DNA of 64,000 bases from Lachnospiraceae bacterium. GTDB lineage: Bacteria; Bacillota; Clostridia; Lachnospirales; Lachnospiraceae. A model generated the notes under the pieces. It saw nothing but the letters and a program-made list of their open reading frames with translations, ran no database searches and was not told where the DNA came from. The stretch lies in contig JAFUKH010000010.1 in the NCBI GenBank assembly GCA_017467845.1, forward strand, positions 20,635-84,634. Direction: 5' to 3'. Positions within the stretch are counted from its first letter, which is position 1. The number at the start of each line of letters is the position of its first letter. Position numbers and translations under genes: made by a program. Shown here piece after piece: positions 14,286 to 49,336 of this stretch.

Positions 14286-14358
14286 GGACCGCTAGCTCAG
14301 TTGGTAGAGCACCTGACTCTTAATCAGGGTGTCCAGGGTTCGAGCCCCTGGCGGTCCA
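14286..14358 (+). tRNA. tRNA-Lys (CTT)
   Basis: A 73-nt cloverleaf. The acceptor stem GGACCGC pairs with GCGGTCC, the D arm is GCTC/GAGC, the anticodon stem CCTGA/TCAGG has loop CTCTTAA with anticodon CTT, and the T arm is CCAGG/CCTGG with GTTCGAG. The discriminator is A; CCA is not encoded in full. A T-rich tract follows after a short G/C-rich stretch. Confidence 0.97.
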
Positions 14359-14433
14359 CTGGAAGTCGAAGGCTTGGCAGAATGCGGGTTTTCGGCTTTT
14401 TTTGTTACTCGAGAGAGGCGTGCGGATAAAAAT

Positions 14434-14540
14434 GCAGAGACATTTCGAGAGAGCTTGCTCACAGAGAAATGTCTCTGCTTTTTTATACATAGGGCGAACG
14501 CCCTACATGAGCGAAACGTAGTGTAGCAAATGACGTACGT
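14434..14540 (+). repeat. Structured intergenic element, diverged third copy
   Basis: After the tRNA comes a strong hairpin, GCAGAGACATTTC (14434-14446) with GAAATGTCTCTGC and a T tract, whose loop holds GAGCTTGCTC. Then comes hairpin TAGGGCG-AA-CGCCCTA (14490-14505), followed by CATGAGCGAAACG and GCAAATG. This order (stem with AGCTTGCT, hairpin, ATGAGCRAAA, GCRAATG) matches the elements at 30142 and 49151. A further CAAGCTTGCTTG lies at 14566-14577. The first hairpin also works as a terminator. Positions 14600-14750 hold nothing I recognise. Confidence 0.45.
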
Positions 14541-14757
14541 CGGATGCGAAGCCTGCGACAACGAGCAAGCTTGCTTGCGAGTCTGTCGGTCGGGGAAATA
14601 GAGGCACGCGTTTATTTGAAGTTGTGTGGCTGATTTTTGGGGACTTTGGAACGCAATCAGAGGACGTGATTATTTGGTTAAGCACTAGTAACTTTCAGTT
14701 TGTTGGAGGGATAACTACCAATTTCGAAATCTTAAAGGTAGCAGTATGCTACAGCCA

Positions 14758-15430: not shown

Positions 15431-15560
15431 TTGCATAAATAACTCAAAATACATATAATATAGTTGTAGATAGAGATATCTACTGCAAATTGCAGATGTT
15501 TGGGCTGGTTGTAAAACCCAGGTCCAACCTATTCGGCGGGGAGACTCCCCGCCATTTTAC
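15431..15560 (+). ncRNA. Structured leader RNA upstream of DUF3800 (DUF3800 RNA motif type)
   Basis: A strong promoter, TTGCAT (15431-15436) and TATAAT (15454-15459) at 17 nt, should start transcription near 15466. The roughly 95-nt leader holds CTGCA-AAT-TGCAG (15483-15495), a GGTT-GTAA-AACC stem with flanking pairs, and a perfect 8-bp stem GGCGGGGA-GAC-TCCCCGCC (15535-15553), followed by ATTTTA. AAGGGG and the ATG of a DUF3800 gene come next. Several structured RNA families named DUF3800 motifs are known from upstream of such genes; assignment to a particular one needs a covariance-model search. Confidence 0.6.
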
Positions 15561-19588: not shown

Positions 19589-19720
19589 TTGCGTTTTGTT
19601 TGGAATTATAGTATATTTTCCTTATTGGGAATGAGGTTCTCCCATGGGTTTAATCCCTAAACCGCATTTAATGCTGATGACTTCTGCGAAATTATTACGC
19701 AGAAATTGTCAGTTTTTTTA
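19589..19720 (+). promoter_or_regulatory. Fluoride riboswitch (crcB motif) with terminator
   Basis: A promoter TTGCGT (19589-19594) and TATATT (19612-19617), 17 nt apart, starts just before an aptamer that fits the fluoride class: GGGAATGAGGTTCTCCC (19627-19643), AAACCGC and GCTGATGACTTCTGC. The 3' part of the aptamer can pair with CGCAGAAATTGTCAG, which is followed by seven T residues (to about 19719), forming a terminator that competes with ligand binding. Fluoride should therefore turn on the antiporter gene downstream. Fluoride riboswitches are known before CrcB, CLC-F and also Na+/H+ antiporter genes. Confidence 0.85.
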
Positions 19721-30022: not shown

Positions 30023-30132
30023 TTGACAAAAGTGAAATGCCTTGTTATACTGAAGTTGATAGTAAGCAGAACGCTTGATCCACGTTTGTTAGGGAAAATT
30101 TCCCGGATAAACGTGGGTCAGGCGTTTTTTTA
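30023..30132 (+). ncRNA. Short RNA or leader with a strong promoter and large terminator
   Basis: TTGACA (30023-30028) and TATACT (30046-30051), 17 nt apart, form one of the best promoters in the window. Transcription from about 30058 meets within a dozen nt a long hairpin: ACGCTTGATCCACGTTTGTTAGGGAAA (from 30071) with its partner TTTCCCGGATAAACGTGGGTCAGGCGT (to 30125), followed by TTTTTTT. The product would be a roughly 75-nt RNA. It could be an independent small RNA or a terminated leader of hisD. Confidence 0.6.
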
Positions 30133-30141
30133 TTTATTAAT

Positions 30142-30286
30142 CTTTCAGAAGCAAGCGATTTCAAGGGAAGTGCAGACCGCAAGCTTGCTTGCAAGGTCGG
30201 CAGTTTACTTGAAATTATTTGGCGAGAAGCCAAATATGAGCAAAAGGAAAGCCTCGAAGAGGCAATTTTGCGAATTCTTCTGAAGG
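30142..30286 (+). repeat. Multibranched structured element, copy 1
   Basis: The outer stem TTCAGAAG (30144-30151) pairs with CTTCTGAA (30277-30284). Inside are ATTTCAAG/CTTGAAAT (30158-30165 with 30208-30215), GACC/GGTC around GCAAGCTTGCTTGC, hairpin ATTTGGC/GCCAAAT (30217-30235), and GCAAAA/TTTTGC enclosing GCCTC-GAA-GAGGC. Conserved single-strand words shared with copy 2 are ATGAGCAAAAGGAAAGC and TTTTGCGAAT. It lies 31 nt before the hisD start codon. Confidence 0.75.
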
Positions 30287-30316
30287 ATGGTGATTCAATT
30301 AATAAGGAGGAAAAAT

Positions 30317-42586: not shown

Positions 42587-42629
42587 TGTAACTATTCAGA
42601 GCATATTCGCATGGCTCTGAATAGTTACA
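42587..42629. repeat. Perfect 16-bp inverted repeat after the RluA gene
   Basis: TGTAACTATTCAGAGC (42587-42602) pairs exactly with GCTCTGAATAGTTACA (42614-42629) over an 11-nt loop. No T tract follows, so it may be an imperfect terminator or an mRNA-stabilising hairpin. The rest of the gap to purC is A/T-rich and holds a likely purC promoter, TTGTCA with TAATGT 17 nt on (before 42750). Confidence 0.6.
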
Positions 42630-47745: not shown

Positions 47746-49179
47746 ATGGGGGCATATTATTTAGCAATTGATATAGGTGCATCCAGTGGGCGTCATATTC
47801 TTTCTCATATGGAGAACGGGAAACTGATTTTGGAAGAGGTTCATCGTTTTCCAAATGGGCTTCATGAGAAGGATGGCGAGAAGTGCTGGGACTATGAAGC
47901 ACTGTTTAACGAAATTAAGACAGGACTAAAAAAATGTAAGGAAATCGGCAAGGTTCCTGCCAGCGTAGGTATTGATACCTGGGGTGTTGACTTTGTGTTA
48001 TTGGATGAGAATGACAAGGTATTAGGTAATACTGTAGGTTATCGTGACGACAGAACCCAGGGCATGGATGAGGAAGTGTACAAAATCATCCCTCACGAGC
48101 AGCTTTACCTGCGTACTGGTATCCAGAAGGCTATCTTCAACACCATCTATCAGTTGATGGCTGTGAAGAAGGGACATCCGGAGTACTTAGAGCAGGCGAA
48201 GACATTTTTAATGGTGCCTGATTATTTCCACTACTTATTAAGTGGTAAGAAGTCTAACGAATATACCGAGGCTTCTACCTCTCAGTTATTAAATCCCGAG
48301 ACCAAGGAATGGGATAAGGAGTTAATCGAAATGCTTGGAATTCCTTCCGAGATGTTTTTACCAATCTCTGTTCCCGGTACCGTACTTGGAGATTTAACCG
48401 CAGAGCTTCAGGAGGAGCTGGGCTTCAACTGTAAGGTAGTGCTTCCTGCAACTCACGACACCGGCTCTGCAGTACTTGCTGTTCCGTCCAACAATCCGGA
48501 TACCGTATACATCAGTTCCGGTACTTGGTCTCTGATGGGTGTGGAGCGTATGGAAGCAGATTGCAGCTTAGAGAGTATGGCTCATAACTTCACCAACGAG
48601 GGCGGTTATCAGTATCGTTTCCGTTATCTGAAGAATATCATGGGTCTTTGGATGATTCAGAGTGTAAAGAAGGAGTTGAAGGAAGAGCAGGGTATTGATA
48701 TTTCCTTCGGTGAGCTTTGCGCAGAGGCTGCAAAGCAGAGCATTACCAGCTTAGTGGATTGTAACGACGGCAGATTCCTTGCACCGAAGAATATGACCAA
48801 GGAGGTGCAGGCAGCTTGCGCGGAGAGCGGTCAGCAGGTTCCTCAGACTCCGGCAGAGATTGCATCTGTTATTTATAATAGTTTAGCTAAGTGCTATGCA
48901 GAGACCATCGAGGAGATTCAGGAGATTACCGGCAAGACCTACGACAGTATCAGTGTAGTGGGTGGTGGTGCCAACGCAGAGTACTTAAATGTACTTACCG
49001 CAAAGTACACCGGCAGAACCGTATTTGCGGGTCCTACCGAAGCAACCGCAATCGGTAACCTGATGGTTCAGATGATGGTAGGCGGTGAGTTAACCGATCT
49101 TAATAGTGCGAGAGATTGCGTATTTGCATCTTTCGACGTAAAAACATATAACAATTCAGAACCTAGCGAATTGAATTAA
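47746..49179 (+). CDS. rhaB: L-rhamnulokinase
   Basis: FGGY-family sugar kinase phosphorylating L-rhamnulose. The 477 residues include YYLAIDIGASSGRHI, VGIDTWGVDFVLLDENDKVLGNTVGYRD (active aspartate region), CKVVLPATHDTGSAVLAVP and ISSGTWSLMGVE, with ISVVGGGANAEYLN in the C-terminal ATP domain. The start is the ATG at 47746 after AAGGAGG. The last residues (NNSEPSELN) and the stop codon lie within the left arm of the structured element at 49151, suggesting insertion at the gene's end. rhaA follows. Confidence 0.93.
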   Translation: MGAYYLAIDIGASSGRHILSHMENGKLILEEVHRFPNGLHEKDGEKCWDYEALFNEIKTGLKKCKEIGKVPASVGIDTWGVDFVLLDENDKVLGNTVGYRDDRTQGMDEEVYKIIPHEQLYLRTGIQKAIFNTIYQLMAVKKGHPEYLEQAKTFLMVPDYFHYLLSGKKSNEYTEASTSQLLNPETKEWDKELIEMLGIPSEMFLPISVPGTVLGDLTAELQEELGFNCKVVLPATHDTGSAVLAVPSNNPDTVYISSGTWSLMGVERMEADCSLESMAHNFTNEGGYQYRFRYLKNIMGLWMIQSVKKELKEEQGIDISFGELCAEAAKQSITSLVDCNDGRFLAPKNMTKEVQAACAESGQQVPQTPAEIASVIYNSLAKCYAETIEEIQEITGKTYDSISVVGGGANAEYLNVLTAKYTGRTVFAGPTEATAIGNLMVQMMVGGELTDLNSARDCVFASFDVKTYNNSEPSELN

Positions 49180-49298
49180 ATTTTGAACGTCAAGCTTGCT
49201 TGTAAGGGCAAAATTTGAATTCAATTCATTTGGTGAGAACCAAATATGAGCAAAAGGAAAGCTGTGAAACAGCGATTTTGCGAATGGTTCTGAATTGT
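49151..49298 (+). repeat. Multibranched structured element, copy 2
   Basis: The outer stem is a perfect 13-bp pair, ACAATTCAGAACC (49151-49163) with GGTTCTGAATTGT (49286-49298). Inside are GAATTGAATT/AATTCAATTC (49168-49177 with 49218-49227), AAATTTTG/CAAAATTT (49178-49185 with 49209-49216), CAAGCTTGCTTG (49191-49202), ATTTGG/CCAAAT (49228-49245), and GCAAAA...ATTTTGC around GCTGT-GAA-ACAGC. Loops and single strands match copy 1 at 30142; stems differ but stay paired. It covers the rhaB stop and ends 39 nt before rhaA. Confidence 0.78.
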
Positions 49299-49336
49299 AA
49301 AAGATACATTATATTTAATCTTAGGAGGATTATAAA

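Follow-up and report, generated by a model that had tools for sequence, protein, structure and literature searches.

Introduction

Mobile elements of the IS200/IS605 type are not known to have inverted repeats or a target duplication. The repeat bcr1, from the Bacillus cereus group, has a conserved RNA fold.

The element that we describe here invites comparison with three systems. Like the bcr repeats, it is short, present in many copies and has features of mobile DNA. Unlike in our element, mobility in the bcr repeats is linked with a TTTAT motif; the first of the bcr elements is described as restricted to B. cereus s.l. (excerpted text of PMC6542083). We draw this likeness from descriptions. 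In the ISBst12 group of the IS66 family, ISDge4 has an 8-bp direct repeat and a single ORF, as given in the excerpted text of PMC12898284. Clostridiales-1 (RF01699), an orphan Rfam family, is listed as a likely RNA without a cis-regulatory role in the excerpted text of Weinberg et al. 2010 (PMC2864571), and the excerpts of the literature on this family that were covered do not mention mobility. A literature search that coupled MITEs with structured RNAs, judged by titles and the beginnings of abstracts, returned nothing describing one fold on two transposon chassis.

We put at about 75% the probability that the element is an IS66/ISBst12-type MITE whose interior is a conserved structured RNA.

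Two folded copies in one window

The window is the whole analysed stretch, 64,000 nucleotides of a Lachnospiraceae genome (G000). A sequence-only reading had reported a multibranched element there in two copies, and both are present on the forward strand, at 30142-30286 and 49153-49296 (Table 1). Each copy folds independently into the shape described (z -7.6 and -8.6), with folding energies of -62.9 kcal/mol for copy 1 and -57.0 kcal/mol for copy 2, and 0 of 200 shuffles reached values as low. Homologues were scored with R2, a model with a hand-written structure that superseded R1, whose first consensus structure omitted P3; in copy 2, the stretch 49153-49296 scores 137.5 bits.

Table 1. Coordinates of the element copies, their parts and related features in the window.
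Feature	Position	Strand	Description
Copy 1, structured element	30142..30286	+	Between a divergent gene and hisD; R2 146.8 bits; fold z -7.6
Copy 1, P1 5' strand	30140..30151	+	Pairs with 30277-30288; corresponds to the transposon's left inverted repeat
Copy 1, P2	30157..30216	+	Long variable arm; loop CTTG (30184-30187) on a conserved GCAAGCTTGCTTGC cap
Copy 1, P3	30217..30235	+	Hairpin ATTTGGC-GAGAA-GCCAAAT
Copy 1, P4	30240..30271	+	GCAAAA-GGAAA-hairpin-AA-TTTTGC; best conserved part; antisense strand terminator-like
Copy 1, P1 3' strand	30277..30288	+	
Copy 2, whole miniature transposon	49148..49301	+	154 bp, between rhaB and rhaA
Copy 2, left 8-bp target duplication	49140..49147	+	AAAAACAT; agrees with the right-hand copy at 6 of 8 bases
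Copy 2, right 8-bp target duplication	49302..49309	+	AGATACAT
41-bp remnant (L297)	42588..42628	.	Built from the two inverted repeats GTAACTATTCAGAGC, ten bases apart; TIR pattern matches C75:63222 and 63248
Weak divergent candidate member	14409..14558	+	23.8 bits, E 6e-4; right after a tRNA gene (14286-14358)

Copy 1 stops 30 nt upstream of the script-called start of hisD, a gene identified by TIGR00069. Its transposon ends have decayed, and its flanks as read show no target duplication. In copy 2 the ends can still be recognised, as ATAACAATTCAG on one side and CTGAATTGTAAA on the other; the reading frame of rhaB terminates within this copy. The 41-bp remnant has flanks without a target duplication, and in the weak candidate we recognised by eye a CTTG-capped arm and the ATGAGC..ATGCGAA motif.

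Immediately 5' of copy 1, at 30060-30135, lies a very strong hairpin (z -10.1) with a T run behind it, and a good promoter-like site stands upstream, at 30023-30051; this hairpin is possibly an attenuator, or the terminator of a short transcript, ahead of hisD. The window also holds a DUF3800-XI RNA (15501-15550) and a fluoride riboswitch (19618-19693), both above their Rfam cut-offs.

Copy number and distribution

Further homologues are plentiful, and some gut bacteria have dozens of copies: in the window's genome BLAST finds 40 places, and the covariance-model search with R2 finds not two matches but 69 (E<=0.01), of which 47 reach at least 88 bits. Twelve of 30 relatives have an R2 match at E<=0.001, namely 11 of 18 in the same genus and 1 of 12 others. 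The counts run from 60 in GAM79 (G006) through 2 to 10 in ten other same-genus genomes to none in seven, and some of the weak matches in relatives may belong to other subfamilies. Such unevenness from one sister species to the next is better explained by a mobile element than by a housekeeping RNA.

The exact core pattern occurs in at least 97 stretches of GTDB genomes. Among the 97 matches listed, 92 are titled Lachnospiraceae or its genera, four carry only the title "bacterium" and one is titled Oscillospiraceae; we take the genera named among the 92 to belong to Lachnospiraceae. Named carriers in this list include Roseburia inulinivorans, Butyrivibrio fibrisolvens 16/4, Pseudobutyrivibrio xylanivorans and Eubacterium ramulus, along with many MAGs. 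Three of the listed stretches are GAM79 loci, and one (L250, from isolate RGIG4182) shares sequence with a locus of the window's genome. Exact core matches were absent from viral contigs, the plasmids searched gave no match, and the phages searched gave a single 39-base match, in an unannotated faecal record.

Some copies stand in head-to-tail arrays, with steps of about 124 bp at G006:C1:1317617-1318007 and about 158 bp at G001:C16:25721-26035. In 12 of 194 copies (L012, L014, L023, L035, L036 and L098 in the window's genome, L136 in GAM79, and L171, L183, L191, L197 and L262 in named genomes) the 3' part of the element, including the P1 3' strand, recurs in tandem on the downstream side, and in none does the 5' part do so; these repeats give one P1 strand several alternative partners. 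At L027 (2796-3082) a ZMP/ZTP riboswitch aptamer lies about 46 nt 5' of an element copy and a gene starts 39 nt beyond the copy, so the element seems to sit between the aptamer and its gene.

The gene neighbourhoods bear on two further explanations. A cis-regulatory RNA, that is, a riboswitch-like leader of downstream genes spread by duplication, would account for the many sense copies placed about 40 nt upstream of a start codon. But an all-against-all comparison of the neighbours of 208 records found few shared genes once close relatives and duplicates of one locus were discounted, the genes downstream of the two window copies differ (hisD and rhaA), antisense, divergent and convergent sites all occur, and many sister species are without the element. 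We consider such a leader very improbable. The sequence-only reading had set a fixed link to gene starts, expected of a regulatory RNA, against many covarying copies without conserved flanking genes, expected of a mobile repeat; we find many covarying copies, few shared neighbours and no fixed gene link. The other explanation is an independently expressed, mobile small RNA gene acting in trans. The core is indeed kept regardless of its orientation to the neighbours, and the listing of Clostridiales-1 cited above (PMC2864571) would agree with such a gene, but a promoter scan of the two window copies with a simple consensus gave no promoter-like site inside either, and the placement within operons is strong. 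We judge a small RNA gene of this kind unlikely, if less so than a leader.

Covariation and conservation

For covariation we aligned 26 copies from the window's genome, taken from 29 with ends worked out after omitting L017, L025 and L035 (doubtful ends); L030, L032 and L045 are also absent from this alignment. In it, 35 of 51 pairs are altered on both sides, so that the compensatory change first noticed between two copies is real. Pairing is possible in 86.5% of cells; shuffles give 73.1%, and sliding the partners by 1-3 columns gives no more than 46.7%. In 55 model-fitted copies, an alignment that leans to the model, 42 of 48 pairs change on both sides, 87.9% of cells pair (93% in P1) and the covariation score is 0.400 vs 0.138.

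It had been claimed that the stems vary while the loops and joints are constant. The unpaired loops and joints are indeed among the best conserved columns, and variation does occur in P1 and P2, in a portion of P3 and in the upper hairpin of P4; the base stem of P4 (GCAAAA/TTTTGC) hardly changes. Two pairs of probable orthologues, L245/L248 and L235/L256, have nearly unchanged P3 and P4, and in L245/L248 most of the P2 arm has been replaced at a fixed site, a case of fast P2 turnover. Taken as a whole, the data support the earlier view that the element is constrained to fold.

Transposon ends and target duplications

When the flanks of 55 copies were lined up, the young copies were seen to start with GTAACTATTCAGAGCC and to finish with its reverse complement, just beyond the limits assigned earlier. 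The whole element is about 153 bp, and most end pairs that contain the core span 140-157 bp, which is too short for a transposase. The end pattern GTAACTATTCAGNGC, with at most one mismatch, occurs at 27 sites in the window's genome and 85 in GAM79, compared with 1 and 0 for the reversed pattern.

Ends for the duplication test were set by the first 12 bases with at most 2 mismatches. For 8-bp flanks, mean identity is 0.54 vs 0.34 in the window's genome (2 of 13 end pairs perfect, expected 0.00), 0.46 vs 0.31 in GAM79 (4 of 39, expected 0.00) and 0.65 vs 0.37 in the named genomes (10 of 37, expected 0.06). Overall, 16 of 89 end pairs are perfect vs 0.06 expected, where L111 and L199 are one copy, L191 gives two rows and the GAM79 set includes remnants of 39-92 bp. 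Other lengths (3-12 bp in the window's genome and GAM79, 4-11 bp in the named set) are near the control with two exceptions, 3 bp in GAM79 (5 perfect vs 1.1) and one perfect 7-bp match in the named set (vs 0.03). We are highly confident that the element is mobile and a MITE of the IS66/ISBst12 type.

The original suggestion had left open a structured RNA or a small non-autonomous element mobilised as single-stranded DNA. Both halves of that alternative seem to hold, in that a folded RNA and a non-autonomous mobile element are each supported; the part about single strands is not. An element of the IS200/IS605 or REP/RAYT kind would suit the hairpins near both ends, and the tandem repeats confined to the 3' side in 12 of 194 copies are an asymmetry that our main reading does not account for. 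But the inverted repeats and the fixed 8-bp duplication of the young copies are those of an insertion sequence with a DDE transposase, so mobilisation of the IS200/IS605 type is not supported, and we give single-strand mobilisation hardly any weight. A non-autonomous IS200/IS605-type element was rejected as a candidate on both features.

A likely source of transposase

GAM79 contains two identical 1817-bp insertion sequences of the IS66/ISBst12 type, in opposite orientation, with the same GTAACTATTCAG ends as the young copies. Each encodes one 485-aa IS66-family transposase, and each is flanked by a perfect 8-bp duplication (ATTTTTAT twice and AAAAAAAC twice). The ends of ISDge4, GTAACTGCTCAGCA, are near-identical to the GAM79 ends, GTAACTATTCAGCAC, and the ISBst12 group resembles our element both in the 8-bp direct repeat and in the single transposase ORF of the autonomous form (excerpted text of PMC12898284). 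The miniature element differs in having no transposase gene, and the GAM79 insertion sequence, for its part, lacks the RNA core (best score 10.5 bits, E 0.17). From these sequence comparisons, the 1817-bp insertion sequence is the likely source of transposase for the miniature element.

A 63% identical transposase in G003 lies between related ends, GTAACTGTTCAG and GTATCTGTTCAG, and the best copy of the RNA element in that genome has a perfect duplication, TATAATTT. An enzyme in G017 is 27% identical, and that genome has no R2 match. The window's genome, in an assembly that is 86% complete, has no IS66-family gene. Of the 11 same-genus relatives that have R2 matches, only 2 have a close enzyme, so that the copies may in many cases be fossils, or else the assemblies may lack the transposase gene.

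Relation to Clostridiales-1 and a second transposon type

The sequence-only reading knew of no named family that fits. This stands at the Rfam gathering cut-off of 48 bits, at which the element is unlisted in the window and 0 of 20 other loci pass; it does not stand under a permissive search, which matches RF01699 over the whole model. Searched alone, copy 1 scores 39.2 bits (E 2.1e-6), and 6 of 10 loci match at E<=0.01 (3e-6 to 5e-3) over model positions 1-166, with the inner P3 replaced by a local end. Scores of the copies against RF01699 range from 27 to 42 bits, the best being 42.5. In the end-to-end match, P1, the P2 arm with its GCUUGC loop and the following arms align. The ATGAGCA..TGCGAAT module lies, in our reading, inside P3 in the Clostridiales-1 RNAs of GAM79 and forms the free-standing P4 in our element.

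Clostridiales-1 also occurs in the same genome as the element. The window's genome has at least 17 RF01699 matches at E<=0.001, of which 4 are over the cut-off (92-120 bits), and 11 of the 13 sub-cut-off matches coincide with R2 matches, so this genome holds both subfamilies. The core of the element is very probably related to Clostridiales-1 RNA. The two differ in that the element falls below the 48-bit cut-off and in their transposon ends and target duplications.

In GAM79 at least 38 matches to RF01699 were found (38 of 139 candidates scored), and we inspected 20 copies in 20 fetched regions. Three of the 20 are identical over 168 bases. Eleven are near-identical including the 3' tail, starting with TGATGCCAGGGTCAAAAG and ending, in reverse complement, with TGATGTCGGGGTCAAAAG, with small changes. 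Thirteen such end pairs, two of them short remnants, have 5-bp duplications, 7 perfect vs 0.25 expected; at 6 bp the same pairs give 2 perfect vs 0.00. Clostridiales-1 in GAM79 is thus carried by a miniature transposon with other ends and a 5-bp duplication. We conclude that a single RNA fold is the cargo of at least two transposon types, the second type being known from one genome. Wide pairs of TGATG ends in GAM79 enclose ordinary genes, and we found no autonomous partner for the Clostridiales-1 chassis there. In one GAM79 group (L159-L163) the outer stems are unrelated in sequence between copies, yet complementary each time. The Clostridiales-1 copies L164-L167 have about 49 extra bases in common in the last arm, and this sub-lineage seems to have moved too.

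Orientation and the sense RNA

The hardest question is whether the sense RNA matters, or whether we are looking at an ordinary MITE with no RNA function. In such a MITE the stems would have palindromic origins, hairpin-templated correction between their two arms would keep them paired, and a terminator-like antisense strand would cause any orientation bias.

We compared orientation in 208 records, reduced to 185 by deduplication, with 25 set aside for having no called neighbour or overlapping a gene; neighbours were called by a simple script of our own. At sites between tandem genes, 84 copies are sense and 34 antisense (p 5e-6), and where both gaps are at most 60 nt the counts are 42 vs 8. 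Sense copies lie at a median distance of 37, 37 and 40 nt from the next start codon. Young copies are close to neutral (20 sense v 17 antisense), as an ordinary MITE would be, but sense predominates among old ones (64 v 17). Fisher's test of this contrast gives p 0.008, a value that depends on the definition (0.003-0.10 over six definitions), and "old" may include subfamilies with other ends. The Clostridiales-1 copies of GAM79 are not biased towards sense (4 of 11 at tandem sites).

Several results agree with an ordinary MITE. The antisense strand of P4 is terminator-like in both window copies, which could by itself produce the sense bias; fold z-scores do not differ between the strands (p 0.095 and 0.80), and old antisense copies retain the core as well as old sense copies (p 0.59 and 0.54). 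The lower folding energy is nevertheless that of the sense strand in 47 of 50 and 31 of 32 copies.

Against an ordinary MITE, arm correction predicts equal numbers of G-U and A-C cells, but in the four well-aligning helices, picked after the table had been seen, the counts are 45 v 13 in the window's genome and 63 v 10 in GAM79, in alignments whose model itself also favours G-U. Because G-U pairs form only on the strand read here, this excess favours the sense RNA; the counts over all helices, 102 v 65 and 85 v 82, speak against it. Also at odds with an ordinary MITE are the conserved unpaired loops and joints, which are common to Clostridiales-1 on other transposon ends. At the orthologous loci L186/L234 there is a compensatory A-U to G-C change in P1. 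On balance, these indirect signs let us lean towards selection on the sense RNA, and we think an ordinary MITE rather unlikely, though the most serious competitor to an IS66/ISBst12-type MITE with a conserved RNA interior.

A possible life cycle and its implications

For a MITE with such an interior, we propose the following course of events. An ISBst12-type transposase would act in trans on the GTAACTATTCAG ends and leave 8-bp duplications; we infer that this enzyme moves the element. In the RNA, the same inverted repeats would form the outer stem P1 that encloses the arms P2, P3 and P4. Insertion looks neutral in orientation, and the older copies between same-strand genes are mostly sense, typically about 40 nt before a start codon. 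Because of the fold, transcription of an inserted copy would do the operon no harm, and the fold may perhaps insulate or stabilise it; sense copies would last for this reason. That the fold makes insertion into an operon harmless or insulating is a tentative idea, on which we would not yet rely. The invariant loops suggest a putative bound partner. Equally speculative is the broader notion that the Clostridiales-1 fold is a portable protective module, taken up by unrelated transposons as a "passport" into transcribed DNA.

The ingredients are known in kind, namely MITEs, IS66 elements and an orphan Rfam family; their combination was not found described in the literature searched. An orphan Rfam family receives a first anatomical explanation, as transposon-borne and mobile, and gains a large related subfamily that escapes the Rfam cut-off. 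More generally, an abundance of covarying copies is no proof of a classical riboswitch or small RNA. If our proposal is true, a miniature transposon inside an operon would be transcribed while the neighbouring genes keep working, and once the transposon ends had decayed, hosts would still retain the fold in an intercistronic role. The two transposon types offer a natural system in which an RNA fold, and not a gene, is the constant cargo.
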